From: a virus
DNA: 64,000 nt
IMG/VR virus record: IMGVR_UViG_3300015374_000002
Span: 1 to 64,000 of that record
Reading direction: 5' to 3' (one strand)
Shown here: one piece after another, positions 5,145 to 52,319 of the stretch
How positions within the stretch are numbered: position 1 is the stretch's first letter
Layout of the letters: each line of letters opens with the position of its first letter
Translations under genes and position numbers: made by a program
Notes under the pieces: model-generated
What the model was told of the DNA's origin: nothing
Databases searched by the model: none
What the model saw: the letters and a program-made list of their open reading frames with translations, nothing else

Positions 5145-5190
5145 TGGTGTCGCTCCATGCCAGACTACAGTCATTTAGCGCCACAGACAA
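5145..5190 (-). promoter_or_regulatory. promoter with spacer element and leader hairpin
   Basis: -35 TTGTCT (5185-5190), 17 nt, -10 TAGTCT (5162-5167), spacer GTGGCGCTAAATGACTG. Leader has TGG AGCGACA CCA just before the Shine-Dalgarno. Confidence 0.7.
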
Positions 5191-5237
5191 GGGGGGGCGC
5201 TCCTGCTCGCCGACGTCGCCGCACATGCGCTCCAAAC

Positions 5238-5275
5238 AAACAACGCCCGGAGGCTAAGCTCTCCGGGCGTTGTTT
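5238..5275 (-). terminator. terminator after the capsid gene
   Basis: AAACAACGCCCGGAG / CTCCGGGCGTTGTTT, a 15-bp stem, 18 nt after the stop of capsid exon 3. Ends the head transcription unit. Confidence 0.85.
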
Positions 5276-5293
5276 GCGTTTCCTGGTCGAACC

Positions 5294-7172
5294 TTACGAC
5301 GGCGTGGTAAACGCGCCGACGACGAACGACTCAGGTCGGTCAACTACGAGGCCCAAGCGCTCCTCACATCTGCTCTCTGTTACCTCCCGCATCTGAGTGC
5401 GGGCGGCCAGGTCATTTCTGCCTGGCTCTACGTCTTTTCCATCGACGTAGGTCGGACTGTATCTTCAACTCCAGATCCACCCCGGCTATACCGGCCCGGA
5501 CGGACCTCTTGAAGTTGCCGCACGCACAAGTCTCTACGGACGCCCCGGTACGGGTTGCCTCGGTATTCCCCACGATTTTGGAGGGGTTCACCGATACAGT
5601 GCGGTTTTCACTGACACGTCACCGTGTCAGGCACCCAGATTGAGTGTGATGGCGTTGCGCTCGAACATGTCTCGGTTCTCAGTGCTGCATGTCTGTTACC
5701 TCTCGCCACAACAAGGACGAGTGGCCGGGTCGTTTCCGCCCGGCTCTGCACCTTTTCCATCGATGCAGTTCGGACTGTATCTTCGGCTCCAGTCCCGTCC
5801 GGCTTACACTGGCCGGGCCGGTCCTATCGGAGTCGCCTCGCGCACAAGTCTCTACGGAGTCCCCAGTGCGGGTTCCCTCGGTATTCCCCAGAAGTGGTCT
5901 CTATGCAGTTAGCGGCGGGGTTCACCGATACAGCGAGGTTTTCACTGACACGTCACCGTGTCAGGCGGCCAGCTCATATTCGACCGCGATGTTGATCTGT
6001 TCCCTGTCATACAGTTTGGCGCCGTACCCGAAGGCGCCCAGGAGGTATTGGCCTTCGTTCATGGCCGGGGTGGCGACGACATCCAGCCGCCACATGCGCT
6101 GCTCTGCCCCGATCGCGATGTTCATGACGAGGCGGTAGTGGCCGTCCTCGGTCATTTCGAGTTCGAGGTCTTCCCAGTCGAGCGGGTGGATGACGACGCC
6201 GGACGGGTTGAAGTAGGCGAGGGTCGCCTTGGTGATGGCCCGCCGGATTTGCGCGGTGAGCGGGTCGGCGCTGGATCCGGTGTAGGTCTGAATGCCGGGC
6301 GTGTTGATGATTCCGGTCAGATTGTCGCCGACGCCGTCGCCGTACAAAATCTGTTCGTCTTCGACCATCTTGATGCCGTCGACCAGTTCACGGTCGATAA
6401 GTCCGCGCATTCTCGGCTCGTCCGCCAGCGTCTGCTTGTGGACGTACATGATGTGGGCGATGGTGGCGAGCGGGTACGTGACCGGGGTGAGTGCGAGGTC
6501 GGACTTGGGCTTCAGTCCGTAGACGTCGGTCGGGCCTCCGGTCGCAGGTGAGACGCCGTCTGCAGCGGTGCGTTCGGGGACGACCGCCGCGTTGTTCGTG
6601 TAGCCGGTCTGGCGGATTCCGTAAAGGACGTTCGCGGTCGTGGTTTCCGCCGGGAATAGGTCGCGGACGCGGCCGGGGCGGAGCATTCGGGTGGTCCACC
6701 CGAGGTCTTGGGGGTGGCCCAGGGCGTTGATGTTCGGAATGGTTCCGGCCATCGAGCTGTAAATGTCTTTGCCTTCGAGGCGGCCGTCGAATGATGCGAC
6801 GGCGCCGACCTGGCGGAACCGGGATGCCTTCATTTCCTCCCACTCGTCGGAGTGGAGGAAGCGTTCGGACAGGGACTTGGTGGCCATCATTCCGGCGGCC
6901 TGCTGTGCCTGTTCGGTGGCGGCGGCGGGTGCGTCTCCGGCGGGCTGGTTGAGGAAGTCGAAGGTGCCGCCTGCCTTCTCTTCCAGCGTGATCATCCGCT
7001 GGATCTGTTCGGCTTCGGTGATGGCCTTCTCGTAGGCGGTGGCCTGTTCGGTGGAGATGGTGACGTTGCCGTCTTCGATCTTCCACGAGGTGGCGATGTC
7101 TTCGATCTGGGTGGCTTTGGCCTGAAGGGCGGAGTTCAGCTCCTTCAGGCGGGACTTGTCTACCGTGGGCAT
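5294..7172 (-). CDS. major capsid protein (HK97 fold), 435 aa after splicing; three exons
   Basis: HK97-type major capsid protein that forms the head shell. Exon 1 (7172-5983) starts at the ATG at 7172 (MPTVDKSRLKELNSALQ) behind GGAGCATCC and has a helical delta-type N-terminal region (to about residue 110), then the shell domain. Unspliced, the frame stops right after INIAVEYELAA. Removing two group I introns (5685-5982 and 5370-5642) joins exon 2 (5684-5643, 42 nt) and exon 3 (5369-5294, 76 nt) in frame, giving INIAVTENRDMFERN then AITLCEERLGLVV then DRPESFVVGAF and stop. That is the expected C-terminal P-domain strand of this family. Exon lengths 1190+42+76 equal 436 codons. Follows the prohead protease gene. 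Splicing is inferred, not shown. Confidence 0.92.
5370..5642 (-). ncRNA. group I intron B in the capsid gene (273 nt, no ORF)
   Basis: Starts after exon-2 CACT and ends in CAG. Near the 5' end GGUG pairs with CACU across the splice site, with the usual U-G pair (P1). P2 is TGACACG / CGTGTCA. The P7 strands are GAGACTTGTGCG and GAAGATACAGTCC, the second being the group I S-element, with G-C pairs and a bulged A. No homing endonuclease. Close relative of intron A. Splice sites are inferred from P1, the terminal G and the protein family. Confidence 0.85.
5685..5982 (-). ncRNA. group I intron A in the capsid gene (298 nt, no ORF)
   Basis: Starts after exon-1 GCGGT and ends in CAG. The guide GCCGC pairs with GCGGU (5 bp, terminal U-G). 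Shares with intron B the P2 hairpin, GTGAAAACC, GGGGAATACCGAGG, GTAGAGACTTGTGCG, GAAGATACAGTCCGA, TCGATGGAAAAG and GAGGTAACAGA. P9 region hairpins CTGCA / TGCAG and CCGGG / CCCGG are visible. No endonuclease gene. Confidence 0.88.
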
Positions 7173-10458: not shown

Positions 10459-10488
10459 AGTATACAGTCATTTAGCGCCACGATGCAA
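10459..10488 (-). promoter_or_regulatory. promoter with CGCTAAATGACTG element
   Basis: -35 TTGCAT (10483-10488), 18 nt, -10 TATACT (10459-10464); the spacer ends GGCGCTAAATGACTG. The leader lacks the usual AGAGCGA hairpin. Confidence 0.7.
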
Positions 10489-41947: not shown

Positions 41948-42021
41948 AAGCCTGAGGGGGGATCGAACCCCTGAACCGACGGCTTTGCAGGCCGCCTCCC
42001 GCGCCAGCGAGAACCCAGGCT
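41948..42021 (-). tRNA. tRNA-Cys(GCA)
   Basis: Acceptor AGCCTGG / TCAGGCT, anticodon loop CTGCAAA, T-arm AGGGG-TTCGATC-CCCCT, discriminator T as usual for Cys. CCA not encoded. Confidence 0.9.
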
Positions 42022-42244
42022 ATGTATTCAGACGTATGGCTGCCGCCCATACGATCAGGAGGACCAGGGCCGCCAATTTGATGAACGTCCACACGCCGCG
42101 CTTGGCGTCCTGCTCCATTTTCGGAAGTGCGGCCAGAGTACCCTGCCATCTGCGCCACAGGTCCAACATCACCTGGAATCGTCTGCCGACGATGAATAGC
42201 ATCATTCCGACGATGATGAGCAGCAGGACCCATTTGTGTGCCAA
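42020..42244 (-). CDS. small membrane protein, 74 aa
   Basis: TTG at 42244 (MAHKWVLLLIIVGMMLFIVG) behind GGGAGTGAGAC. Two membrane segments, residues 5-20 and 55-70 (FIKLAALVLLIVWAAAI). The stop overlaps the tRNA-Cys by 2 nt. Unrecognised; could be holin-like in topology but nothing else supports that. Confidence 0.75.
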   Translation of the reverse strand: MAHKWVLLLIIVGMMLFIVGRRFQVMLDLWRRWQGTLAALPKMEQDAKRGVWTFIKLAALVLLIVWAAAIRLNT

Positions 42245-42330
42245 GTCTCACTCCCGCAGGTCAGAGGACTGCAAAGCGCCTCCGCCAACGTACGCGCGGA
42301 CGTCTCCGAATGTGGGGCGTTCAGTGTCAT
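42202..42330 (-). CDS. possible small protein, 42 aa
   Basis: MTLNAPHSETSARTLAEALC overlaps the upstream stop by ATGA and the next gene by 43 nt. Weak support beyond the coupling. Confidence 0.35.
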   Translation of the reverse strand: MTLNAPHSETSARTLAEALCSPLTCGSETWHTNGSCCSSSSE

Positions 42331-42473
42331 CGGGTCGCGTCGAATCGTACGGCGCCGCCCGGCTGCGACTGCTCCAGGTCCACCACGGCAGCCAGAAATC
42401 CGGCGGCGTCCAACTCTCCTCGCTGCAACCGCGCGACCAGATCGGACGCGTCCAGAATCACCACTTCGTTCAT
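42327..42473 (-). CDS. small protein, 48 aa
   Basis: MNEVVILDASDLVARLQRGE from the ATG at 42473, right after the 3' end of tRNA-Tyr, so it would be translated from an mRNA made by tRNA processing. Helical pattern (LDAAGFLAAVVDLEQSQPGG). Unrecognised. Confidence 0.5.
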   Translation of the reverse strand: MNEVVILDASDLVARLQRGELDAAGFLAAVVDLEQSQPGGAVRFDATR

Positions 42474-42474
42474 G

Positions 42475-42558
42475 TGCGCCAGGAGAGATTCGAACTCCCA
42501 ATGCCCGGAAGGGCCACAGCTTTACAGGCTGCTGAGCGACCAACTGCTCAACTGACGC
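42475..42558 (-). tRNA. tRNA-Tyr(GTA)
   Basis: Acceptor GCGTCAG / CTGGCGC, loop CTGTAAA, long variable arm as in bacterial tRNA-Tyr, discriminator A. Confidence 0.9.
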
Positions 42559-42562
42559 TTGG

Positions 42563-42647
42563 GGTGACCGACGGGACTCGAACCCGCATGAACCTTTCGG
42601 CTCCGGGGGTTCACAGCCCCCTTCCTCAACCAATTCGGATCGGTCAC
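42563..42647 (-). tRNA. tRNA with His anticodon (GTG) and long variable arm
   Basis: Anticodon stem GGGGG / CCCCC, loop CTGTGAA. Between anticodon and T stems is a 17-nt arm GAGCC-GAAA-GGTTC, a class II feature not expected for His. Acceptor GTGACCG / CGGTCAC with C73. Position 8 reads A, another oddity. Confidence 0.75.
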
Positions 42648-42649
42648 AG

Positions 42650-42721
42650 TCGGCCTGGAGGGAATCGAACCCACACCTGATCTTTAGGAGAGATCTGCTC
42701 GGTCCTTCGAGCTACAGGCCG
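42650..42721 (-). tRNA. tRNA-Arg(CCT)
   Basis: Acceptor CGGCCTG / CAGGCCG, stem GATCT / AGATC, loop CTCCTAA, A73; one mismatch in the T stem. Confidence 0.85.
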
Positions 42722-42730
42722 TGCCGCCGG

Positions 42731-43069
42731 TTACTTCGCCAGGCGGCTCGCGGTACGCCGCGCCGCTTCCGCCGAGTCGGGCGACGCCCTGAACACGTTG
42801 ACCTCGTAGACGTCAACCTGCTCACCCAGCACCGGGAGCGTCTCCAACGTCCGCACCGTGGCGACGCCCGCATCACGCGCTTCGACGACGAAGGTCGCTT
42901 GCACCGCCGTATTGGCGGGGTCTCCCACCCAGGTCAGGTGCATAACGTTCGGCACCACGTCCCTGCCGGGGGGCAGAGACGACAGCCTGGTGCGCGCCTC
43001 CTCCGCATCCGCCTTCGTCGCGAAGCCCCCCAGGATCAGTTTGACGTGCCAATTCTGCATGTCAGTCAC
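42731..43069 (-). CDS. hypothetical protein, 112 aa
   Basis: The GTG at 43069 overlaps the previous stop (GTGA); nearby ATG at 43060 is an alternative. NWHVKLILGGFATKADAEEA is a SPOR/ferredoxin-like beta-alpha start; a second beta-alpha unit follows (NTAVQATFVVEARDAGVATV). Small alpha/beta protein of unknown function, between tRNA-Val and tRNA-Arg. Confidence 0.7.
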   Translation of the reverse strand: MTDMQNWHVKLILGGFATKADAEEARTRLSSLPPGRDVVPNVMHLTWVGDPANTAVQATFVVEARDAGVATVRTLETLPVLGEQVDVYEVNVFRASPDSAEAARRTASRLAK

Positions 43070-43224
43070 CACCCATTCCCTCGCAAGATCTTGGCGCGTT
43101 CCTCGCTCCGCCGCAGCGCCTTGAAGCCGTACTTGTCGTCTTCCGCCACGGCCCTCTGGCGGCGCCAGATCTTCGGAGCCTTCTTCGGCTTGTCGTCCTC
43201 GCTCGCGCTCTTGCCGAATCCCAT
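43066..43224 (-). CDS. small basic protein, 52 aa
   Basis: MGFGKSASEDDKPKKAPKIW from the ATG at 43224 behind CAGGAGGAACGC. Lys/Arg-rich, probably nucleic-acid-contacting or disordered. Lies just downstream of tRNA-Val(TAC) with AGAGCGA in the short leader. Confidence 0.65.
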   Translation of the reverse strand: MGFGKSASEDDKPKKAPKIWRRQRAVAEDDKYGFKALRRSEERAKILRGNGW

Positions 43225-43255
43225 GCGTTCCTCCTGTGGTTGTGTCGCTCTGACG

Positions 43256-43326
43256 TACCCGGTGAGGGAGTCGAACCCCCTCCTTCGCCTTGTAAGGGCG
43301 TTGCTCTCCCGTTGAGCTAACCGGGC
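43256..43326 (-). tRNA. tRNA-Val(TAC)
   Basis: Acceptor GCCCGGT / ACCGGGT (G1-U72), loop CTTACAA, T loop TTCGACT, A73. Confidence 0.9.
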
Positions 43327-43343
43327 TTGACCATACACCAAAC

Positions 43344-43372
43344 AGCGTACAGTCATTTAGCGTTCAAGTCTA
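43344..43372 (-). promoter_or_regulatory. promoter upstream of tRNA-Val(TAC)
   Basis: -10 TACGCT (43344-43349), spacer TGAACGCTAAATGACTG, poor -35. Fires 18 nt before the tRNA. Confidence 0.55.
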
Positions 43373-43804
43373 GGTTGTTTTGTGATCGTGACCGCAACCG
43401 CTGACCAGCGGCGGCACCTGAACGCGGACGACTTGTTCTCGATCGCCATAGCGGATCTGGATGAGTTCGTTCAGCGATGCCTTACCGGCCCGCTTCGACG
43501 CCTTGTCCTCGCCGAGCAGGACGGCGGCCAGTTCGTCAAAGGTCTGATTGACGCGGGCGACCGCGTGACGCATCGCCGCTTCGGTCGCATCCGCCAGCTT
43601 GGCGACTTCGGCCTTCAGCCGGTCGTTGACCGCCTGGTCGGTGAGCTGGGGGATGCGGTCGATGAGCGCTTGCAGCGCCTTGCGTTCGGCGATCATATCC
43701 TTCAGGACGCCCCTGGCCTCACTAGTCGCCTCCCGCAGGCTCTCCTCTGTCGTGATTGCCGATGAGATGTCGTCTGGCCGCTGCTGACGGCGTTTGGTTC
43801 CCAT
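43370..43804 (-). CDS. hypothetical helical protein, 144 aa
   Basis: MGTKRRQQRPDDISSAITTE from the ATG at 43804, 2 nt after the 3' end of tRNA-Val(GAC) and without a Shine-Dalgarno. Long helices/coiled-coil (LQALIDRIPQLTDQAVNDRL; KLADATEAAMRHAVARVNQT). Ends close to the next promoter. If translated, it would start near the processed 5' end. Confidence 0.6.
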   Translation of the reverse strand: MGTKRRQQRPDDISSAITTEESLREATSEARGVLKDMIAERKALQALIDRIPQLTDQAVNDRLKAEVAKLADATEAAMRHAVARVNQTFDELAAVLLGEDKASKRAGKASLNELIQIRYGDREQVVRVQVPPLVSGCGHDHKTT

Positions 43805-43805
43805 G

Positions 43806-43878
43806 TAGTCGCGGCAGGATTTGAACCTGCGACCTTCGCTGTGTCGAAGCGGTGCTCTACCAGCTGAGCTACACGACC
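43806..43878 (-). tRNA. tRNA-Val(GAC) with C33
   Basis: Acceptor GGTCGTG / CGCGACT, D-arm GCTCAGCTGGTAGAGC, loop TCGACAC: position 33 is C instead of the near-universal T. Confidence 0.8.
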
Positions 43879-44020
43879 TTTTGTGGTCGAACCCGGATCC
43901 CGGCATGCAGGGTAGTCCCTTGCGTTCCCTGTCTGCCGTCGGCGGGCCCGGCCGGTCGGCCCAGGCTTTCAGGGGGCGATACAGCCGTGGGTATCGCTAG
44001 GTTGGTCCGGGTTCGACCAG

Positions 44021-44093
44021 CACCGGTGGGAGGGTTCGAACCCCCGGCCTTCCGCTTTGGAGGCGGCTGCTCTACCAACTGAGCTACACCGAT
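44021..44093 (-). tRNA. tRNA-Trp(CCA)
   Basis: Acceptor ATCGGTG / CACCGGT, loop CTCCAAA, G73 as required for Trp. Confidence 0.92.
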
Positions 44094-44158
44094 CGGGCGC
44101 GAGTGAGGTATCGCGCAGCTTTTTGCAGGACTTCCGGATCGTCGCTCCTGACGATGAA

Positions 44159-44192
44159 GGCCGACGCCTGAGACGGGATCCAGGCGTCGGCC
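44159..44192 (-). terminator. perfect hairpin after tRNA-fMet
   Basis: GGCCGACGCCTG / CAGGCGTCGGCC, 12 bp, 10-nt loop, then TTC. Terminator or processing structure. Confidence 0.6.
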
Positions 44193-44199
44193 CGCTGAG

Positions 44200-44273
44200 T
44201 GGCGGGGGCAGGATTTGAACCTGCGACCTCTGGGTTATGAGCCCAGCAAGCTACCGAACTGCTCCACCCCGCT
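44200..44273 (-). tRNA. initiator tRNA-fMet(CAT)
   Basis: Position 1-72 is an A-C mismatch, anticodon stem CTGGG / CCCAG with three G-C pairs, loop CTCATAA, A73: hallmarks of initiator tRNA. Confidence 0.92.
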
Positions 44274-44283
44274 ACGTCCCATC

Positions 44284-44631
44284 CTACTTGGGACGCTCCA
44301 CTACGTGGAGATCCTTTAGTGCGTCCTCGATCGCACGGTTCGTCGTCGCCGTCTCAATGACGGCGACACGCTGCTCATGCTCTACGAGGCTCAGGCGCCG
44401 ATCGGCATAGGCGTCGGCCACCTGCTGCAACGCGTGGTCACGGTCGTCGCCGGTCGGCCTGGCGGCCAGCCAGCGTTCCATCTGCCGGGAGCGCCGCGCG
44501 TCCTGGATTACCTGCCTCTTCCGCTTCGCGTGGTCGATCTTCTCGGTCATCCACGGAATAGCCACAACGATCACAATTACGGCTATGGCCAGCCACAGGA
44601 TGGCGAATGCCGGTAGAGCTGCCTTCATCAT
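44284..44631 (-). CDS. membrane-anchored protein with DUF1707-like tail, 115 aa
   Basis: ATG at 44631, 7 nt after AAGGAG (a GTG 3 nt upstream is possible). N-terminal membrane segment ALPAFAILWLAIAVIVIVVA, then basic helix, then ALQQVADAYADRRLSLVEHE and ETATTNRAIEDALKDL, which resembles DUF1707 of actinobacterial membrane proteins. Unknown role. Confidence 0.75.
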   Translation of the reverse strand: MMKAALPAFAILWLAIAVIVIVVAIPWMTEKIDHAKRKRQVIQDARRSRQMERWLAARPTGDDRDHALQQVADAYADRRLSLVEHEQRVAVIETATTNRAIEDALKDLHVVERPK

Positions 44632-44646
44632 CACTCATCTCCTTCG

Positions 44647-44664
44647 GGTGGGTCGCTCTCCACC
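44647..44664 (-). promoter_or_regulatory. leader hairpin between tRNA-Glu and the 44284 gene
   Basis: GGTGG, loop AGAGCGA, CCCACC (one bulge), 5 nt after the tRNA 3' end. No promoter between. Confidence 0.65.
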
Positions 44665-44668
44665 AACG

Positions 44669-44742
44669 TGCCGCCGACGGGATTCGAACCCGCAAAACCC
44701 CAGATTGAAAGTCTGGTGACTCTACCCTTCGTCCACGGCGAC
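44669..44742 (-). tRNA. tRNA-Glu(TTC)
   Basis: Acceptor GTCGCCG / CGGCGGC, loop CTTTCAA, T-arm GCGGG-TTCGAAT-CCCGT, A73. Confidence 0.9.
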
Positions 44743-44754
44743 CAGGGACTTACG

Positions 44755-44826
44755 TACTCCGCGCGGGGATCGAACCCGCACCTCCTGATTGAGAATCAGG
44801 TATCCAGACCACCAGACCAGCGGAGC
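44755..44826 (-). tRNA. tRNA-Glu(CTC)
   Basis: Acceptor GCTCCGC / GCGGAGT, stem CCTGA / TCAGG, loop TTCTCAA, A73. Confidence 0.9.
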
Positions 44827-44892
44827 TTGTAGGGCCAGGCAGCGCATACCCAGATCACCCCTCCGATTCCTGGGGATGGCGCCTGACCCTTC

Positions 44893-45408
44893 TCACGCAA
44901 CAGTTGCCGACTCTACTCGGAACCATTCGCGAGCCTGTGCGAAATGCTTGGCCGATACACCATGCTGCCACCCGGTGTGAATCAGCCGGAAGTCGCCGAC
45001 GCCCGGATGCCCTTTCAGCCACACCTTGTCACGCCTGGTCAGCTCGTCATCGAACCAGACGAACGGCCGCCCCTGCACGAACTTCGCCACCCTCGGCGTC
45101 TTGCGGTGCACCCGGTAGTCATCCCCCGGCTCCACCGCCTCCCGCATGTCGATGACCGGCAACTGAGGCAGCCCCAGAAGGGGAGCGATATGCGCGTTTG
45201 CGTCGTGGCTCCACATGGTCGCCCACACCAGGTCGGCGCCGACCGTCTCGGCCAGCTCCAGCAGCACCGGTCCATGTTCGGGGTTGAGCAGGACGTTGTA
45301 CGTCTCGCCCTGGCAGGTCAGCCTGTGCGCCTGCCACTGCGGACCGGGACGCCCGAACGGTGCGAGCACACCATCCACGTCCAACAGGATCAACTTGTCC
45401 ACGTGCAC
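44893..45408 (-). CDS. HAD-like phosphatase, 171 aa
   Basis: GTG at 45408 (MHVDKLILLDVDGVLAPFGR) behind AAGGAGAGGAT. Motif I LLDVDGVLAP gives the nucleophile and acid/base Asp pair; motif III/IV region PFVWFDDELTRRDKVWLKGH has the DD pair. Compact HAD hydrolases of this type occur in actinobacteria and phages; substrate not predictable (polynucleotide or nucleotide phosphatases are options). Confidence 0.85.
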   Translation of the reverse strand: MHVDKLILLDVDGVLAPFGRPGPQWQAHRLTCQGETYNVLLNPEHGPVLLELAETVGADLVWATMWSHDANAHIAPLLGLPQLPVIDMREAVEPGDDYRVHRKTPRVAKFVQGRPFVWFDDELTRRDKVWLKGHPGVGDFRLIHTGWQHGVSAKHFAQAREWFRVESATVA

Positions 45409-45423
45409 ATCCTCTCCTTCGCG

Positions 45424-45440
45424 CGGGGTCGCTCTTCCCG
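45424..45440 (-). promoter_or_regulatory. leader hairpin of the HAD gene
   Basis: CGGG-A, loop AGAGCGA, CCCCG; between tRNA-Lys and the HAD gene, no promoter visible. Confidence 0.6.
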
Positions 45441-45470
45441 CACCCGCGAAGACGTAGACCGTCTTCGCCG

Positions 45471-45543
45471 TACCCCCGCCGGGATTCGAACCCGGATTTC
45501 GACGCTTAAAAGGCGCCTACTCTGCCAATTGAGCTACAGGGGC
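45471..45543 (-). tRNA. tRNA-Lys(TTT)
   Basis: Acceptor GCCCCTG / CGGGGGT, loop CTTTTAA, T-arm CCGGG-TTCGAAT-CCCGG, A73. Confidence 0.9.
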
Positions 45544-45546
45544 ATG

Positions 45547-45690
45547 TCACGCAGGATTGGCGATCACCATCCCGCAGTCCTCACAGTGCGGCGGCCAGAC
45601 CAGCCACCCCATCCACTCCTCCGAACGATCCAGTCCCTCCGGAACGATCCTGCCGCCGCACTGCTGACAGTCGGGATAGAACCAGGTCAT
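45547..45690 (-). CDS. small zinc-ribbon protein, 47 aa
   Basis: MTWFYPDCQQCGGRIVPEGL then HCEDCGMVIANPA: two CxxC pairs separated by about 30 residues, a classic zinc ribbon. ATG at 45690 behind GGAGGGTCT. Function unknown. Confidence 0.75.
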   Translation of the reverse strand: MTWFYPDCQQCGGRIVPEGLDRSEEWMGWLVWPPHCEDCGMVIANPA

Positions 45691-45704
45691 AGACCCTCCG
45701 TACG

Positions 45705-45777
45705 TGCGCCGTGAGAGATTCGAACTCCCAACCATCCGGGTAGAAACCGGCCGCGCTATCCATTGCGCCAACGACGC
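45705..45777 (-). tRNA. tRNA-Arg(TCT)
   Basis: Acceptor GCGTCGT / ACGGCGC, D-arm GCGCAATGGATAGCGC, loop TTTCTAC, A73. Confidence 0.9.
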
Positions 45778-45805
45778 GAACCTTTCACGATCCGAAACGA
45801 TCGTT

Positions 45806-45988
45806 TCATTCCATCGCCACGCCCGGTCCTAGAACCGGGCAGAACGACACTGGCACCAGCCGCCCGGTGGCCATGTCGCTGCACGCGAGGCAGATCTCCG
45901 CCGGGATCGTGTGGCGGCTTTCCCCGTCGGGCCGGTAGTCGATCGACTCGTGCCAGCCCGACTCCGGGTCGTCCGGGTCATAGCCCAT
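45806..45988 (-). CDS. small protein, 60 aa
   Basis: MGYDPDDPESGWHESIDYRP overlaps the upstream gene's end. Cys in CLACSD and FCPVL. ATG at 45988; an ATG 12 nt upstream is possible. Unrecognised. Confidence 0.65.
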   Translation of the reverse strand: MGYDPDDPESGWHESIDYRPDGESRHTIPAEICLACSDMATGRLVPVSFCPVLGPGVAME

Positions 45989-46385
45989 ATTTCGCCTCAT
46001 CCTTCACGTACACCATGTAGGCGATCACGCCCGCTTCGTAGGCGGCCCGCCGAGCGTCGGCGTCGGTGTCGTACTTGGTGCCGTCCAACGGGTGCCTGAT
46101 GATGTCGCAGCCGCCTTCGGGCTTGTACTTGATCTGTCTGATACTCAGCTCGATCTTGCCGTCGTCGGCTGCGACCACGGACGGCGAGGACATCACCTTG
46201 CACAGTCGCGGGAACGACACTCCCCACTCGGCGTGAGTCACTATCGGCGGCCCGCCGTCGGCGTAGGTCGGGAAGCGGCCGTAGGGGGCTTCATTGAAGG
46301 TCCAGATGCGGTAGCGACCGTCGTGCCAGTCGTATTCCTGGCCCTGCATCGGCGGGTAGTCGGTAACGTTCTGTGGCGTGTCCAT
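45978..46385 (-). CDS. hypothetical protein, 135 aa
   Basis: MDTPQNVTDYPPMQGQEYDW from the ATG at 46385 behind GGAGGACCC. Tyr/Trp-rich soluble protein (HDGRYRIWTFNEAPYGRFPT). Promoter and textbook leader hairpin upstream. Unrecognised. Confidence 0.75.
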   Translation of the reverse strand: MDTPQNVTDYPPMQGQEYDWHDGRYRIWTFNEAPYGRFPTYADGGPPIVTHAEWGVSFPRLCKVMSSPSVVAADDGKIELSIRQIKYKPEGGCDIIRHPLDGTKYDTDADARRAAYEAGVIAYMVYVKDEAKYGL

Positions 46386-46401
46386 GGGGTCCTCCGTGGG
46401 G

Positions 46402-46454
46402 GTTGGTCGCTCTCCAACACCCCAAAGATACATCCATTTAGCGTCTTAGGTCAA
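46402..46454 (-). promoter_or_regulatory. promoter and leader hairpin
   Basis: -35 TTGACC (46449-46454), 18 nt, -10 TATCTT (46425-46430) with CGCTAAATGGATG. Leader hairpin GTTGG, AGAGCGA, CCAAC (46402-46418), the simplest form of the motif. Confidence 0.75.
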
Positions 46455-46457
46455 GGG

Positions 46458-46548
46458 CGGAAAATGGAGGACTCGAACCCCAGGGCCGTTCACACCAGCC
46501 CTCATCCGGTTTAAATCGGCGGCCACCTCCTTGGTGGCGTCATTTTCC
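46458..46548 (-). tRNA. class II tRNA, probably Leu(TAA); anticodon register unclear
   Basis: Acceptor GGAAAAT / ATTTTCC, long variable arm AGGGC / GCCCT. Anticodon region CCG-ATTTAAAC-CGG leaves an 8-nt loop: reading TAA (Leu) or TTA (ochre-reading) depends on the register. G73, unusual for Leu. Confidence 0.6.
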
Positions 46549-46574
46549 CCCACCGTGTTGAGGGGTGGGTCCAG

Positions 46575-46658
46575 CGGAAGGCGGAAGACTCGAACTTCGG
46601 CCGCCGCCGACGGCCACGCGGATTCCAGCCGCGTCCCGGCACCTGCCGGTCACCTTCC
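46575..46658 (-). tRNA. tRNA-Ser(GGA)
   Basis: Acceptor GGAAGGT / GCCTTCC, stem CGCGG / CCGCG, loop CTGGAAT, long variable arm, G73. Confidence 0.88.
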
Positions 46659-46661
46659 ATG

Positions 46662-46736
46662 GTCCTCGGAGCAGGAGTCGAACCTGCCGTCGCCCGGTTA
46701 TCAGCCGGGTGCCTTCACCGCTTGGCCACCCGAGGA
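46662..46736 (-). tRNA. tRNA-Ile(GAT)
   Basis: Acceptor TCCTCGG / CCGAGGA, stem CCCGG / CCGGG, loop CTGATAA. Starts with T1-A72 and has C73, both unusual for Ile. Confidence 0.8.
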
Positions 46737-46739
46737 AAG

Positions 46740-46824
46740 CGGAGAGGGAGGGTATCGAACCCCCGCCGGTGTGACCCGGGCAGCGGCGTAGCAAGCCGTC
46801 CCATTACCTCTCTGGCACCTCTCC
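46740..46824 (-). tRNA. tRNA-Ser(GCT)
   Basis: Acceptor GGAGAGG / CCTCTCC, loop TTGCTAC, long variable arm, G73. Confidence 0.88.
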
Positions 46825-46853
46825 ACGATACTTCCATCTAGCGCCTGCCGGTG
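46825..46853 (-). promoter_or_regulatory. promoter-like element abutting tRNA-Ser(GCT)
   Basis: GCGCTAGATGGAAG then TATCGT immediately before the tRNA 5' end. If this is the -10, transcription starts inside the tRNA, so the true -10 may lie further upstream. Confidence 0.4.
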
Positions 46854-46926
46854 CTACCTTGGAGTGGTACGCCCCTGGTCCGGCTCTGCACCGCATCCCG
46901 CCAGGGGCACGGCCATTTCTGGGACT

Positions 46927-47000
46927 GGTGCCGACCCCGGGATTCGAACCCGCCCTACCGCCTTGGCAAGGCGATGTGCGACCGCTGACACTTCACCCAC
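46927..47000 (-). tRNA. tRNA-Gly(GCC) with mispaired acceptor stem
   Basis: D-arm GTG-TCAGCGGTCG-CAC, stem TCGCC / GGCGG, loop TTGCCAA and T loop TTCGAAT are good. Acceptor GTGGGTG faces TCGGCAC, so only the outer three pairs form. Confidence 0.6.
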
Positions 47001-47073
47001 AAGTTCCGTGACCGGTGGACCGACGACTCGGGTGTGGACGGGGCCGGGGCGACCATCCTCCGGTCACGGAAAG

Positions 47074-47143
47074 AGCCCAACCCCGGAGTCGAACCGGGCA
47101 GGCCGTTCGTACCAAGAACGGGTGCACACCAGGTGCGAAGGGC
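47074..47143 (-). tRNA. tRNA-Thr(GGT), short D-arm
   Basis: Stem CGTTC / GAACG, loop TTGGTAC. Acceptor GCCCTTC / GTTGGGC with two T-T mismatches, D-arm GCAC-CTGGT-GTGC shorter than normal, discriminator T. Confidence 0.7.
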
Positions 47144-47155
47144 AAACGGGTAGGG

Positions 47156-47189
47156 GTGTCCGGGCCGTGAACGCCCGGCCCGGACACCA
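47156..47189 (-). other. 12-bp hairpin between tRNAs
   Basis: GGTGTCCGGGCC / GGCCCGGACACC between tRNA-Gln and tRNA-Thr. Possible processing or pausing structure. Confidence 0.6.
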
Positions 47190-47192
47190 CCG

Positions 47193-47265
47193 CTCTGGGA
47201 TCAGGAATCGAACCTGAGCAAACCGGAACCAAAATCCGGCCGCCGAGCCAGCACGGCATCCCAGA
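47193..47265 (-). tRNA. tRNA-Gln(TTG)
   Basis: Acceptor TCTGGGA / TCCCAGA, stem CCGGA / TCCGG, loop TTTTGGT, G73. Confidence 0.9.
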
Positions 47266-47270
47266 ATGCG

Positions 47271-47341
47271 AGCCCAAGGGCGGAATCGAACCGCCTCGAA
47301 CGCCTTACGGGGGCGCTGCTCTGCCAGTGAGCTACAAGGGC
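47271..47341 (-). tRNA. tRNA-Thr(CGT) with C33
   Basis: Stem GCGCC / GGCGT, loop CCCGTAA (C at 33). Acceptor GCCCTTG / CTTGGGC with two T-T mismatches, discriminator T, like tRNA-Thr(GGT). Confidence 0.7.
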
Positions 47342-47356
47342 GTGACCCCGAAGGGC

Positions 47357-48034
47357 CTACATGTCCGGCCGGGGCTGAAACTCCGGCCTGGAGCTGATCT
47401 CCTCAACCCAGTCCGACAGGGAGATCTCTTCGCCGGAGCCACTATAGAAGGCGAGATCGTCCACCTTCGCATGCAGTTCCACGTCATGCGGCATTGGCAG
47501 GATGCCTTCTGCTTCGGCGGTGTCGCGGTGCTTAACGACCGCGAAGGCGAGGCGGAACAGGGTGTCCTGGTTCCGTTTGCGCTTGTCCGGATTAGGTTCT
47601 GCCGGATGCCTGCCGTTCAGCTTGTTCGGCCCGGAGGCTGCGCGGATCCGTTTGATGTCGGAATGCCGCAAGCTGATGATCTGCTTGTCTTTGAGGATTT
47701 TCGTACGCCACAGGTCATATTCGCCCTTGGCGGCGAAATACTTGCGTTTCCCCTCTTCGCCCAGATTCCAGCACTGCTGATGGTAGGAGTCCATCTCTGC
47801 TCTCCGCGTCGCGATCTGGTCGTCCAGGGCACGCAGCAGACGAACCAGAGCCTGCTCGGTCCGTTCGATCAGCGACGGCCCGGAGAGCATCCCCCAAAGC
47901 TGTTGACGCTTTTCGGTCACCGAGACGTCGTCGTGGCGACGAGGGTCGGGATAGCCGATGTTTTGACGGATCAGCAGGTCGAAGCCTTCAGGCTCCAGCT
48001 CTTGAATGGCGGCAAGGCTCACGGGGATGGCCAT
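47357..48034 (-). CDS. hypothetical protein, 225 aa
   Basis: MAIPVSLAAIQELEPEGFDL from the ATG at 48034; AAGGAACACG lies upstream. Helical and charged (EQALVRLLRALDDQIATRRA; KYFAAKGEYDLWRTKILKDK), basic centre, acidic C-terminus. Could be nucleic-acid-binding. Embedded between tRNA-Leu and tRNA-Thr. Unrecognised. Confidence 0.75.
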   Translation of the reverse strand: MAIPVSLAAIQELEPEGFDLLIRQNIGYPDPRRHDDVSVTEKRQQLWGMLSGPSLIERTEQALVRLLRALDDQIATRRAEMDSYHQQCWNLGEEGKRKYFAAKGEYDLWRTKILKDKQIISLRHSDIKRIRAASGPNKLNGRHPAEPNPDKRKRNQDTLFRLAFAVVKHRDTAEAEGILPMPHDVELHAKVDDLAFYSGSGEEISLSDWVEEISSRPEFQPRPDM

Positions 48035-48109
48035 GGGTGGCGTGTTCCTTCTTCCGGGGGTTGCCGTCCCGGCGCCGGACAAGACACCGGGACGATCCTG
48101 TGTGGTGCG

Positions 48110-48182
48110 TGCGCCCGCCGGGACTCGAACCCGGATCATCCGCATCCTTAGTGCGACGCCTCTGCCATTGGGCCACAAGCGC
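48110..48182 (-). tRNA. tRNA with Leu anticodon (AAG), short variable loop
   Basis: Acceptor GCGCTTG / CGGGCGC, stem CGCA / TGCG, loop CTAAGGA, variable loop ATGAT, A73. Leu tRNAs are normally class II. Confidence 0.78.
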
Positions 48183-48218
48183 TTCAGGACGGTTCTACAG
48201 GCCGCCACCGACAAAACG

Positions 48219-48287
48219 AGCCGCCCCCCGGAATCGAACCGGGCCTACCCCCTTACAAGGGGGGCGTCGCATCCATGGCGCGGCGGC
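48219..48287 (-). tRNA. tRNA-Thr(TGT), short D-arm
   Basis: Stem CCCCC / GGGGG, loop CTTGTAA, acceptor GCCGCC / GGCGGC, reduced D-arm, discriminator T as in the other Thr copies. Confidence 0.72.
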
Positions 48288-48391
48288 AGACGGAAGAGGG
48301 TGGCGACGGAAAGGATTCTGCAGCCAAACCGCCCAACCAGCCCGGCGGTCTCCTTCCCGTTCTTCTGTGGCTGTCCACGCCACCCCCGTGT

Positions 48392-48510
48392 GGACCCGGC
48401 GGGATTCGAACCCGCATCTCCGGCTCTCCCTATGACGCACACCGCCCCCGGACGGAGGTGGCCACCTCGTATCCGGATCGCGCGGTCACGCCCGATTGAG
48501 TTACGGGCCC
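48392..48510 (-). tRNA. tRNA-like gene of 119 nt, possibly interrupted
   Basis: Acceptor GGGCCCG / CGGGTCC with A73, 5' TAACTCAATCGGG and T-arm GCGGG-TTCGAAT-CCCGC are normal, but about 45 extra nt lie between. GTCATAG near the expected anticodon suggests Met(CAT), yet its stem is poor. Interrupted tRNA, unusual insertion or decayed gene. Confidence 0.5.
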
Positions 48511-48611
48511 TGGCAGATGATGGCGACGAGGGGGACAAAGCCTCCAAAGCGCCCAACCAGCCCGGCGCGCTCCCTCTCGTCCTTCTGCGGCTGTCCACGC
48601 CACCACCTGAG

Positions 48612-48694
48612 CTGTCGGGCGGAGAATCGAACTCCGGCCGCCCCTCGCGCGAGGAGAACGACCCTGCCACACGTCTCAACGACGCGACCCGACA
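48612..48694 (-). tRNA. class II tRNA-like, G73 (Ser-type), anticodon unclear
   Basis: Acceptor TGTCGGG / CCCGACA, T-arm CGGAG-TTCGATT-CTCCG, variable arm CCTC / GAGG. The anticodon region AGG-GTCGTTCT-CCT gives only 3 pairs and an 8-nt loop. Confidence 0.5.
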
Positions 48695-48780
48695 CCGTGA
48701 CGGTTCCTCCGGATCACCTCGGGAGCAGCCGACAAGCCCGAGAGGGCGGGAGCGACCCTATTCGGTACCCTTCCGTCGCG

Positions 48781-48868
48781 AGCCGGTGCGGACTCGAACC
48801 GCCGTTGACCGTCACCGGCCGTCCCCACTCGCGACGCGGGGACGGTCGGCCGCCGGAGTCGAACCGGC
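48781..48868 (-). tRNA. tRNA-like with CGC in the anticodon position, long variable arm
   Basis: Acceptor GCCGGT / ACCGGC, stem CCCGC / GTGGG, loop GTCGCGA (CGC), variable arm GAC...GTC, T loop TTCGAGT. CGC would be Ala but position 3-70 is C-G and the variable arm is class II. Confidence 0.5.
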
Positions 48869-48878
48869 ATACCCAATG

Positions 48879-48948
48879 CTCCCGGACCAGGAATCGAACC
48901 TAGAGACACAGGGGCCAGAACCCTGCTGACGGCCACCGCCATCCGGGA
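48879..48948 (-). tRNA. tRNA-Gln(CTG)
   Basis: Acceptor TCCCGGA / TCCGGGA, stem CAGGG / CCCTG, loop TTCTGGC, G73. Confidence 0.9.
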
Positions 48949-49010
48949 AGGAGCAGACCCGGTTGCAGCCGGGCCCGCCAATTATCCGCCTGCTCTACGG
49001 ACGGGCAAAT

Positions 49011-49439
49011 CTACCAGGAGTCCCACACGCCGAAGTGGCGGTGGCGCGGGTCCGGGGATTCGACGTCCCAGGCGGCCTGTACGGCATCCTGGGCGCCTCG
49101 CAGCATCTTGCCGACCTCCCGGCCAACGGCCCGATCGGCAGCGCGCAGGGCGCGTTCCTGACGGTTGGAGATGCCGCCGATCACGTGCCCCAGGTTGAAG
49201 GTACGCGGGTAGGTGCCCGCCTCCAGGCGGCGGGTCACCCGGTCCGGGCGCGGACGGTGCCCGGCGCGCTCAGCCTGGGCCAGCGCGGCGGCGCTGTAGC
49301 GCAGCGCGGACCGGATCTCGTTGGCGGTGCTCGGGTAGGTGGCACGCCACCAGGCGAAGATGTAGAGGCGACCGTCGGCGTCGTAACGCCGGGTGCCAGT
49401 GCGGTGGTTGTAGGGGACGTGGTGAACAGTACGGGACAT
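49011..49439 (-). CDS. hypothetical basic protein, 142 aa
   Basis: MSRTVHHVPYNHRTGTRRYD from the ATG at 49439 behind GGAGTCCGA. Arg/His-rich with a helical middle (SALRYSAAALAQAERAGHRP). Likely binds nucleic acid. Lies between tRNA-Leu(CAA) and tRNA-Gln. Unrecognised. Confidence 0.7.
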   Translation of the reverse strand: MSRTVHHVPYNHRTGTRRYDADGRLYIFAWWRATYPSTANEIRSALRYSAAALAQAERAGHRPRPDRVTRRLEAGTYPRTFNLGHVIGGISNRQERALRAADRAVGREVGKMLRGAQDAVQAAWDVESPDPRHRHFGVWDSW

Positions 49440-49524
49440 TCGGACTCCGACGTGCGGGCCCGCCCCGGATGGGCAAGCCGTCTACGTCTCACCCGCCGTG
49501 AACATCACATTCGCCTCCTTCGCG

Positions 49525-49597
49525 TAGGGGTGGCCGGATTTGAACCGGCATCATCCGCATTTTGAATGCGGCGCCTCTGCCGTTGGACTACACCCCC
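49525..49597 (-). tRNA. tRNA with Leu anticodon (CAA), short variable loop
   Basis: Acceptor GGGGGTG / CACCCCT, D-arm GTCCAACGGCAGAGGC, stem CCGCA / TGCGG, loop TTCAAAA, variable loop ATGAT, A73. Same class I body as the AAG tRNA. Confidence 0.82.
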
Positions 49598-49598
49598 G

Positions 49599-49670
49599 TG
49601 CGCCGTCAGGGACTCGAACCCTGCTCTCTCGATTAAGAGTCGAGTGCATAACCATCCATGCTCACGGCGC
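49599..49670 (-). tRNA. tRNA-Lys(CTT)
   Basis: Acceptor GCGCCGT / ACGGCGC, stem CTCGA / TCGAG, loop CTCTTAA, A73. Confidence 0.92.
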
Positions 49671-49778
49671 TTTCCGTCCGGCCGGTTAGCGTCGGCCTGC
49701 CGGACGATCCCTGACCCGCCCGGGGGACGCCAATCCCGCCGGTGCAGTATCAGGGCACCCCACCCAAGTGGGGTGTAG

Positions 49779-49849
49779 AGCCGTACCGGAGAGTCGAACT
49801 CCGCTCCCCGCGTTGGAAGCGCGGGACATCGCCACAATGCTTGTACGGC
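49779..49849 (-). tRNA. tRNA-Gly(TCC)
   Basis: Acceptor GCCGTAC / GTACGGC, stem CCGCG / CGCGG, loop CTTCCAA, discriminator T. Confidence 0.88.
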
Positions 49850-49852
49850 ATG

Positions 49853-49918
49853 GGGACCAGGCGGGGAATCGAACCCCGCTTTCCTAGGATTTCCGTGCCC
49901 TTTCCGGGGGCCTGGTCC
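49853..49918 (-). tRNA. tRNA-like without a pairable anticodon arm
   Basis: Acceptor GGACCAG / CTGGTCC, D-arm GCCC / GGGC and T-arm GCGGGG-TTCGATT-CCCCGC are intact. The 17 nt between (ACGGAAATCCTAGGAAA) cannot form a 5-bp anticodon stem. Confidence 0.4.
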
Positions 49919-50084
49919 ACGGCGGGAAACGGCCCGGGTGCCCACGAGTGATCAGCTCGCAAACACTGACGGTATCCGTAGGGGTTTCCCCCTTTCCGAT
50001 CCGGTTCATCCCGCGTGCTCGACGACGCTCCGGATCCCCCTTCGCTGGCAACCCAGCTACTAAGTTCACCTGCACCGTCGTGCG

Positions 50085-50156
50085 TGGCTCCCCAGAGAGT
50101 CGAACTCTGTCCTCTGGATCTTCAGTCCGGCGCTCATCCCCATGAGCTTGAGAGCC
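50085..50156 (-). tRNA. tRNA-Phe(GAA)
   Basis: Acceptor GGCTCTC / GGGAGCC, loop CTGAAGA, one mismatch in the anticodon stem, T loop TTCGACT, A73. Confidence 0.85.
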
Positions 50157-50181
50157 TTTCGATCTCACCCGGCCGCAGAAG

Positions 50182-50325
50182 CTAGTGGTCGGGTGTCTTG
50201 TTCTCGTCGTCTATGACGCGTGTGGCCGCTGCCGCTGTGGCATCCTTCTTGGCCGCTATCCGCTTATTGATCTCTCTTATGTCTGCCTCGATCTCACGCA
50301 GTTCGCGTGCCTTTCGTCCGAACAT
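50182..50325 (-). CDS. small coiled-coil protein, 47 aa
   Basis: MFGRKARELREIEADIREIN from the ATG at 50325 behind AGGAGGCGAC. Heptad-like helix with an acidic tail (DDENKTPDH). A recurring small protein type in actinophages. Unknown function. Confidence 0.7.
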   Translation of the reverse strand: MFGRKARELREIEADIREINKRIAAKKDATAAAATRVIDDENKTPDH

Positions 50326-50370
50326 GTCGCCTCCTGGCTAGGGGGGTGTCAACCTGGCGGGGAATTTTCG

Positions 50371-50589
50371 TTACGGTGCCTGGTCGAAGTATCGGCGGCC
50401 ACGTTCGAACGCCGTCGTCCGATGTACGCCGTGCACGCCCTCCGTTGCCGCCAGGACGCGTCCCAGCGCCGTCTTGTAGGCGCTACGGGCGGTCGCCGCT
50501 CCAGGGAGTGGCCCGTCCGCGTTGTTGACTCTGGCGTCTTCACGGGCGATGTCAGCCAGCAGGTCTTCAACAAGCTTCTGTATGTCCAT
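50371..50589 (-). CDS. hypothetical protein, 72 aa
   Basis: MDIQKLVEDLLADIAREDAR from the ATG at 50589 behind AGGAGAACC, after a leader hairpin. Helical; C-terminal RTTAFERGRRYFDQAP. Located after tRNA-Arg(ACG). Unrecognised. Confidence 0.75.
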   Translation of the reverse strand: MDIQKLVEDLLADIAREDARVNNADGPLPGAATARSAYKTALGRVLAATEGVHGVHRTTAFERGRRYFDQAP

Positions 50590-50600
50590 GGTTCTCCTGT

Positions 50601-50615
50601 CGGGTCGCTCTCCCG
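50601..50615 (-). promoter_or_regulatory. leader hairpin
   Basis: CGGG, loop AGAGCGA, CCCG, 4 bp perfect; no promoter between it and the upstream tRNA-Arg(ACG). Confidence 0.65.
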
Positions 50616-50719
50616 TTGGGTGGTGGGCTGCTGTACAGCGCCGCCCACCAGGCGCTCCCCCGCACGGCCGTGCGGGGGCCGGTCACCCATACTCGATGAC
50701 TTTCAGGTGATTCCGGACG

Positions 50720-50791
50720 TACCCGCGACAGGATTCGAACCTGCATCCTCGACGTTCGTAGCGTCGCGCTCATCCATTGAGCTACACGGGC
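50720..50791 (-). tRNA. tRNA-Arg(ACG)
   Basis: Acceptor GCCCGTG / CGCGGGT, stem CGACG / CGTCG, loop CTACGAA, A73. Confidence 0.9.
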
Positions 50792-50910
50792 ATGATGCAC
50801 GACAGGGCCAGGGACTTCCGTCGCAATGCGTGTTACCGCTCTTCCAGCCCTGCCGTGCACGATCTCCTGGCCGACCACGCGGGCGTCTCACCCCGCGACC
50901 GGACCCCCAC

Positions 50911-51138
50911 CTAACCGGCCAGGTCGTTCTCACCGCCCAGTGCGGCGCATTCCGTGCACGGGCGCGTCCTCAGCGGACCAGGCCGCCAGAACAGGATCAG
51001 CGCCCCGAACGGCGGAATGATCGCCGCTATGGACGGGTTGCAGAACTCGTCCTCACCCTTGAAAATCGTTGGCTTCCACCAGCAGGTGAGCGTGGTGGGC
51101 GACCACCACATCAGGCGGCCGATGTTGAACTGCTTCAC
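50911..51138 (-). CDS. small Trp-rich, possibly membrane protein, 75 aa
   Basis: GTG at 51138 (MKQFNIGRLMWWSPTTLTCW) with AAAGGCGAGT upstream. Hydrophobic segment SIAAIIPPFGALILFW and terminal CTEC. Unrecognised. Confidence 0.6.
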   Translation of the reverse strand: MKQFNIGRLMWWSPTTLTCWWKPTIFKGEDEFCNPSIAAIIPPFGALILFWRPGPLRTRPCTECAALGGENDLAG

Positions 51139-51165
51139 ACTCGCCTTTCGGATCAGCCGGGAAGG

Positions 51166-51339
51166 TCACTTCTTGTTGTTGATCTTTGCGCTACGGGCGA
51201 CCGTCCTGGCCCGCTCGTAATGCGCATCCGACTCCGCCTTGTCGCCGTCCAGCTCCGCGATGAAACCCTTCGCGGCATGCTTGGCGACCTGGTCAAGCTG
51301 CTTGTCGGTCAACTTCCCATACTCCGCATTGCCCGCCAT
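51166..51339 (-). CDS. small protein, 57 aa
   Basis: MAGNAEYGKLTDKQLDQVAK from the ATG at 51339 behind AGGAGGCGCC. Helical, Lys-rich C-terminus (ARSAKINNKK). Leader hairpin upstream. Unrecognised. Confidence 0.75.
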   Translation of the reverse strand: MAGNAEYGKLTDKQLDQVAKHAAKGFIAELDGDKAESDAHYERARTVARSAKINNKK

Positions 51340-51358
51340 GGGCGCCTCCTGTGAGACT

Positions 51359-51377
51359 CCCGAGTCGCTCAACCGGG
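51359..51377 (-). promoter_or_regulatory. leader hairpin
   Basis: CCCGG-T, loop TGAGCGA, C-TCGGG with a G-T pair, before GTCTCACAGGAGG. Confidence 0.6.
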
Positions 51378-51507
51378 AGAAGGTGCGGGTGCCGCTTCAC
51401 TACGGCCTAGGCCACGACCGACCGGCTTTCTCCGCAACGCGTACGCTTCGCCGACCAGCCTCCCAAGGGCCAGAGCCCGGGGTAAGGGTTCCCGGGCGCT
51501 CCCGCCG

Positions 51508-51662
51508 TCCCTGGTGCTGGATTCGAACCAGCAACTTCCGCCCCCGTATTCGGGATTACCCGGCCAGGTCCCCGCCCTGCCCGACTAGTACGGGCTGAAC
51601 GGTTTACCCCTGACAAACGGGCCCCGGCGGGACGATGCCTCTACCAATTGGGCTACCCAGGG
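51508..51662 (-). tRNA. tRNA-like gene of 155 nt, possibly interrupted
   Basis: 5' CCCTGGGTAGCCCAATTGGT reads as acceptor plus D-arm; 3' end has T-arm GCTGG-TTCGAAT-CCAGC and ACCAGGG. Six acceptor pairs match. About 80 extra nt lie in the anticodon region and include a perfect GCCCG-TACTAGT-CGGGC hairpin. Same kind of enlarged tRNA as 48392-48510. Confidence 0.5.
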
Positions 51663-51695
51663 CTGGAGTGAGGCGTGATGTGCCTCACTCTCGCG

Positions 51696-51771
51696 TACCC
51701 GCAGCAGGATTCGAACCTGCACCATGCCCCACTCCGGAGGTGGGTGCCCTGTCCAGTTGGGCGATACGGGC
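51696..51771 (-). tRNA. tRNA-Arg(CCG), copy 1
   Basis: Acceptor GCCCGTA / TGCGGGT, stem CCCAC / GTGGG, loop CTCCGGA, A73. Confidence 0.9.
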
Positions 51772-51775
51772 GTGC

Positions 51776-51823: not shown

Positions 51824-51831
51824 TTGCGACG

Positions 51832-52032: not shown

Positions 52033-52056
52033 GCTGTCCCTCCTTTCTCTGTGACG

Positions 52057-52315: not shown

Positions 52316-52319
52316 GTGC

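Follow-up and report, generated by a model that had tools for sequence, protein, structure and literature searches.

The locus raises the question of whether a phage capsid gene whose reading frame ends too early encodes a shortened protein, or continues beyond inserted DNA that is removed from its mRNA. It lies on the minus strand of the first 64,000 bases (the window) of IMG/VR record IMGVR_UViG_3300015374_000002, which is 85,789 bases in length. The frame opens at an ATG at 7172 and, as noted in the first-pass annotation and seen again in the minus-strand reading frame, stops early after INIAVEYELAA. Comparison of sequences strongly supports the reading that this is an HK97-type major capsid gene (PF05065), interrupted by two related group I introns. 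The parts of the gene are as follows, in the order of transcription.

5983..7172, minus strand: exon 1 of the major capsid gene, 1190 nt, from the ATG
5688..5982, minus strand: group I intron 1, 295 nt, terminal G at 5688; no Rfam match
5643..5687, minus strand: exon 2, a micro-exon of 45 nt, 15 codons in length
5373..5642, minus strand: group I intron 2, 270 nt, terminal G at 5373; RF00028 match of 34.9 bits
5294..5372, minus strand: exon 3, 79 nt including the stop codon TAA

Exons of 1190, 42 and 76 nt and introns at 5685-5982 and 5370-5642 had been proposed. The in-frame join and the 5' ends of both introns hold, as does the presence of a terminal G in each, but the 3' splice sites had been set 3 nt too far downstream, the Gs being at 5688 and 5373 rather than at 5685 and 5370, and two exon lengths change to 45 and 79 nt. 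Three intronless relatives, an IMG/VR contig (L002, 65%), Actinomadura violacea (L004, 67%) and Planobispora siamensis (L005, 60%), feature one extra residue at each junction compared with the earlier join, and read V-S-TENRD at the first junction, and TF-R-AEERL, TL-R-CEERL and TI-R-CEERV at the second. When both 3' splice sites are moved 3 nt upstream the missing S and R are regained, and the Gs at 5688 and 5373 allow 4 and 5 consecutive Watson-Crick pairs in P10, against 2 and 0 with those at 5685 and 5370. The 3' splice sites were set accordingly, the earlier ones being ruled out by relatives and P10 pairing alike. The corrected exons (1190 + 45 + 79 nt) encode 437 residues plus stop, and the resulting protein aligns with all three relatives free of gaps at both junctions.

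The spliced protein matches the whole PF05065 domain (3e-35, 122.4 bits, profile positions 23-279 of 280), the unspliced one scores 91.7 bits over positions 23-244, and solved HK97-type capsid proteins match the family profile of the spliced protein. The ratio pN/pS of exons 2 and 3 to L002, L004 and L005 is 0.33, 0.17 and 0.21, figures obtained from 40 codons, with synonymous change saturated for two of the three relatives; the corresponding values for exon 1 are 0.34, 0.38 and 0.50. These ratios indicate purifying selection on exons 2 and 3. It is scarcely credible that the gene is broken, the insertions remaining in the RNA and the phage decaying or living with a shortened capsid protein: exons 2 and 3 retain frame, sequence and a pN/pS no higher than that of exon 1, which disfavours decay, and the guide sequences of the insertions fit their own exons. 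A structure predicted for the intronless L004 protein from a 4-row alignment had a mean pLDDT of 35.9 and a pTM of 0.22, and was not used.

The assignment of both insertions to group I, already made in the first-pass annotation, is strongly supported by covariation, by P1 and P10 pairing, by conservation of the exons, and by homology to the introns of the mycobacteriophages Baka and LittleE. The elements identified are listed below.

5965..5987, minus strand: P1 of intron 1, exon end GCGGU (5987-5983) with guide GCCGC (5969-5965), U.G at the splice site
5970..5973, minus strand: P10 strand in intron 1, GCUG, pairing with the exon 2 start CAGC (5687-5684)
5945..5964, minus strand: P2 hairpin of intron 1, containing an in-frame UGA (5963-5961)
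5847..5852, minus strand: P7 5' strand of intron 1, GAGACU
5772..5784, minus strand: GAAGATACAGTCC with the P7 3' strand of intron 1
5632..5646, minus strand: P1 of intron 2, exon end CACU (5646-5643) with guide GGUG (5635-5632)
5636..5640, minus strand: P10 strand in intron 2, AUCUG, pairing with the exon 3 start CAGAU (5372-5368)
5611..5630, minus strand: P2 hairpin of intron 2, of the same sequence as in intron 1, containing an in-frame UGA (5629-5627)
5529..5534, minus strand: P7 5' strand of intron 2, GAGACU
5454..5466, minus strand: GAAGATACAGTCC with the P7 3' strand of intron 2

The S-element GAAGATACAGTCC, the P7 partner GAGACT and one and the same P2 hairpin are present in both insertions, as had been described. 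The two copies of GAAGATACAGTCC (5784-5772 and 5466-5454) are the sole matches in the window at up to 2 mismatches; yet two or more matches of this type were found in 17 of 100 shuffles, so that the element is not significant evidence when taken alone. A block of 173 nt common to both insertions is 79% identical, and the introns are 81.1% identical over P2-P9.1. Both carry a U.G pair at the 5' splice site in P1 (GCGGU/GCCGC and CACU/GGUG), P1 of intron 2 being made up of just 4 pairs, U.G included. An alignment of 17 introns, from which near-duplicates, LittleE and L011 were left out, supports P2, P3-P9.2 and the P7 pseudoknot: over 57 pairs 96.3% of 952 cells are paired, and 33 pairs changed on both sides. 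By helix, paired cells amount to 96.1% in P3, 100% in P4 and in P5, 98.0% in P6, 88.2% in P6a, 100% in P7 and 84.0% in P8; the core helices P3-P8, with the P3/P7 pseudoknot, are thus those of a group I intron. The pairing score was matched or beaten by none of 500 shuffles, a result not to be read as a probability because the structure was partly derived from the same alignment and the rows are related. All 17 introns have a G-C pair in P7 (columns 153/234), which we take to be the guanosine site, after the Tetrahymena intron.

Guides of the relatives fit the exons next to them. Mean pairing of exons with their own guide is 3.83, against 2.57 with the guides of others, over 54 distinct exon/guide sets (108 profile hits, 91 of them usable, 74 with a G five bases before P2); the own guide exceeds the mean of the others in 44 exons and is not better in 10, and none of 2000 guide shuffles scored as high. 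The covariance-model search suggested earlier was partly successful, intron 2 being found by RF00028 (E = 5.2e-7) below the gathering score of 50 bits, which neither intron reaches, and intron 1 matching no Rfam family up to E = 10. The cut-off of RF00028 is uninformative for this lineage, since the Baka intron, proven to splice, scores 28.6 bits, less than intron 2. In sequence searches both introns match the one in the minor tail gene of Baka and the one in the capsid gene of LittleE, identity over the matched pieces being 73.7% to the former and 69.5% to the latter.

The capsid pre-mRNA almost certainly carries two group I introns of one lineage, the removal of which would yield the full 437-residue HK97-type capsid protein. 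The introns are probably self-splicing. Each would fold its own core. The guide would first pair with the last bases of the upstream exon to form P1, which includes the U.G pair, and next with the first bases of the downstream exon to form P10; guanosine bound in P7 would cleave the 5' splice site, and the exon end released by this cut would attack just after the terminal G. With both introns out, 1190 + 45 + 79 nt would be joined, while in unspliced RNA the stop codon in P2 would halt translation before the ribozyme core is reached.

Such an in-frame stop, located at the start of P2 in both introns, is found between exon and P4 in 17/17 introns of the alignment, stops in the other two frames in 10/17 and 9/17. 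According to a review, group I introns usually have early in-frame stops, which prevent ribosomes from entering the core (PMC3073962). The first-pass annotation had proposed that unspliced mRNA makes a shortened capsid protein, and that the level of splicing controls head assembly. Unspliced mRNA would indeed yield a protein of 403 residues, ending at EYELAA and lacking the end of the PF05065 domain, and splicing of T4 introns reportedly tracks translation and growth state (a title cited in PMC3073962). Yet the stop is general, both here and in that review, so that it lends no support to such a control, and splicing in LittleE is called presumably extremely efficient (PMC3706429); regulation of this kind is very improbable. 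We infer that splicing in this phage would be efficient and constitutive, exon 2 being normally kept.

Removal of the two introns as one unit, either purposeful or as noise, would give an in-frame capsid variant without STENRDMFERNAITL, exon 2 being 45 nt long. Skipping is known where two similar introns flank a short exon, as in Twort orf142 and Coxiella 23S rRNA (PMC10136302), and gives rise to the dominant variant of the SIOphi terminase (PMC11878797). The similarity of the introns over P2-P9.1 (81%), their interchangeable P7 strands, and the 3 P10 pairs still formed, when matched by hand, by exon 3 with the guide of intron 1 would also favour it. The P3 strands, however, fit poorly between introns: intron 1 with intron 2 shows one mismatch and one G.U out of 6 pairs, the reverse combination two mismatches. 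Moreover, P1 and P10 differ between the introns, and this type of change suppressed skipping in engineered tandem introns (PMC10136302). Retention of exon 2 in the spliced mRNA is therefore expected from the pairing of these strands; the STENRDMFERNAITL segment is in addition conserved in the three relatives and aligns to solved capsid proteins, and we regard skipping as unlikely.

The distribution of the lineage was monitored in IMG/VR. Four exact intron-pattern scans, which targeted the intron alone, gave 114 loci; 78 had hits, at E up to 1e-12, to a profile made from 17 introns, the window and the two mycobacteriophage loci not being counted, and the remaining 36, with weaker or no hits, were kept out of gene assignment. 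The 78 loci hold 104 profile hits, two of which, in L098, resemble halves of one intron. Major capsid genes contain or adjoin 94 of the 104 hits (72 of 80 clusters at 90% identity), a share counted for this lineage alone. Hits were assigned to capsid genes by a capsid reference within 500 nt, or by a flanking ORF matching a capsid family, one of the two flanks sufficing in L098, L107 and similar loci. Other hits are associated with minor tail (2), tape-measure-like (1), portal (1) and major tail (1) genes, and five are unassigned: those in L069, L071, L120 and L122 resemble capsid-assigned loci, and the second hit of L067 resembles the major tail locus L090. Both L090 and this second hit of L067 are instances of lineage introns in or by major tail protein genes. 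The portal gene interrupted by an intron of the lineage (L034:2205-4354) resides on the same contig as three capsid introns (L009, L034).

The best PHROGs matches of the flanking exons fall into five capsid families (1357, 10, 752, 2263 and 29), and introns are located at about ten positions in the 1357 family. A BLAST search of cultured phages found introns of this lineage in 29 records of mycobacteriophages, including Baka, Optimus and LittleE; one Alicyclobacillus phage gave a short match. Introns in a major capsid gene, called unusual in the first-pass annotation, are not so in this lineage, most hits being in or next to capsid genes and the LittleE capsid intron having already been shown to splice (PMC3706429). 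No further copies were found in the present record by a DNA search of the whole record, by RF00028, or by the profile in the window and at record positions 62001-85789.

Several introns may crowd a single capsid gene. At least two profile hits in one capsid gene were found in 17 of 78 loci, a count in which the near-duplicates L064/L083 and L077/L081/L105 are included, and L034, L067 and L098 left out. The capsid gene at L057:4322-6490 is made up of five exons and four introns (RF00028 matches of 69.2, 58.1, 31.5 and 26.5 bits, two above the cut-off). That at L097:5601-8014 has six exon stretches and at least four introns, with at least four RF00028 matches (86.2, 44.8, 36.9 and 33.6 bits) in the part scanned and a further gap of about 300 nt outside the scan. 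The closeness of the two introns in the window had been correctly noticed, but the distance is 45 and not 42 nt, nor is it a rarity: pairs whose profile ends are 11-65 nt apart, compared with 36 nt in the window, recur in L064/L083, L073, L074, L080, L089, L097 and L102. The crowded contigs are metagenome assemblies, in which error may occur case by case; assembly error is nevertheless disfavoured because the frames are intact on both sides of each intron.

Local duplication of intron 1 as the origin of intron 2 is unsupported, each being closer to an intron at another locus. Over P2-P9.1, and with weak tree support, intron 1 is nearest to L057b (84.2%), intron 2 to L058 (84.0%). The two not being clearly nearest relatives, separate arrival of both from a common pool and local copying are equally likely. 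A tentative reading, possible though we would not favour it, is that these small introns (about 240-300 nt), most of them lacking an endonuclease, form a lineage specialised for the capsid genes of phages, spreading at the RNA level by reverse splicing into the most abundant late mRNA. Repeated insertion would give rise to genes with four or five introns and to micro-exons, the present gene being one instance, guides and P3 drifting apart so that each exon is kept. Reverse splicing would need a guide match of a few bases only, and related introns at many sites with fitted guides are what it predicts. The preference for capsid genes could reflect the abundance of capsid mRNA.

Spread at the DNA level by homing or relaxed endonucleases, the gene of which was later lost, stands at even chances. 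The LittleE intron has an endonuclease gene (PMC3706429), and relaxed endonucleases are named as a way to new sites (PMC3984707). A candidate homing gene, an ORF matching Endonuclease VII (PF02945, 7e-22), lies between capsid exon 1 and the intron profile at L066:3258-3695 (minus strand), and an ORF with a weak, below-cut-off match to LAGLIDADG_3 resides beside the intron in L107. The introns in the window, on the other hand, are too small, at 295 and 270 nt, to encode an endonuclease as homing introns do, and profile searches of the record for two endonuclease families, PF01844 and PF13392, gave no match. Nor would one site-specific endonuclease explain introns located at many positions in capsid genes of five PHROG families.

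The closest known systems are the group I introns of Cluster J mycobacteriophages, found in the LittleE capsid gene gp13 and in the minor tail gene of Baka and Optimus, the splicing of which was shown by RT-PCR (PMC3706429). They are homologous to those described here, interrupt virion genes, and likewise have a U before the intron and a G at its end. Cluster J phages, however, have one intron per gene, and the LittleE intron lies near the mature N-terminus and carries an endonuclease gene, whereas the window has two compact introns near the C-terminus. A group I intron in the capsid gene of the lactococcal phage Tuc2009 is cited in the same report. Two highly similar group I introns around a micro-exon are also found in one gene of phage Twort, orf142, but the exon is 23 nt long and can be skipped, while that in the window is 45 nt, a multiple of 3, and belongs to a capsid gene (PMC10136302). 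Bastillevirinae phages have genes with two or three group I introns and a small exon, as well as alternative splicing; their 45 introns, however, reside in genes for DNA polymerase, terminase, thymidylate synthase and reductase, and the main text of the report nowhere uses the word capsid (PMC11878797). Several group I introns interrupt the major capsid gene of Faustovirus E12 (5 of 12 introns, 13 exons), but this is a giant amoeba virus with mixed intron types (PMC6247863), and its likeness to the phage gene is presumably convergent.

In the open-licence literature we found no paper describing a phage capsid gene with more than one group I intron, nor any describing an intron lineage with such a focus. 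What is new is thus the setting, a lineage centred on capsid genes and capsid genes with multiple introns, a single capsid intron of the lineage being known from LittleE (PMC3706429). Phage group I introns are said to favour genes of nucleotide and DNA metabolism, a preference called mysterious (PMC12350094), and the preference of this lineage is the opposite. Because the most expressed phage gene holds closely related introns at many sites, with guides that differ and are fitted to these sites, this question can be tested in a phage. Capsid genes are also marker genes for sorting viral contigs, and capsid proteins of this kind will be annotated as cut short because the introns mostly score under the Rfam cut-off.

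The host is probably an actinobacterium, since the nearest capsid relatives are found in genomes of Actinomadura and Planobispora, and Streptomyces phage Gilgamesh (44.3%) is the best match among annotated phages; in megablast the capsid gene matched no annotated phage record. Just downstream of the capsid stop, at 5236-5277 in the window, chance Rfam alignments drew attention to a long, perfect-looking, GC-rich inverted repeat, terminator-like in appearance. On the minus strand of the window, 28 tRNA matches are found at 41950-55395, along with one borderline match to a selenocysteine tRNA (47.8 bits, cut-off 47). The sequence TACAGTCATTTAGCG occurs fifteen times in the window at up to 2 mismatches (0.01 expected), from 1438 to 61798, 13 copies being on the plus strand and 2 on the minus (for example at 1999-2013, 2984-2998, 5166-5180, 10463-10477 and 43348-43362). 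In the first 11 kb the copies are located around the starts of leftward ORFs, and TACAGTCATTTAGCG is possibly a phage promoter or operator.
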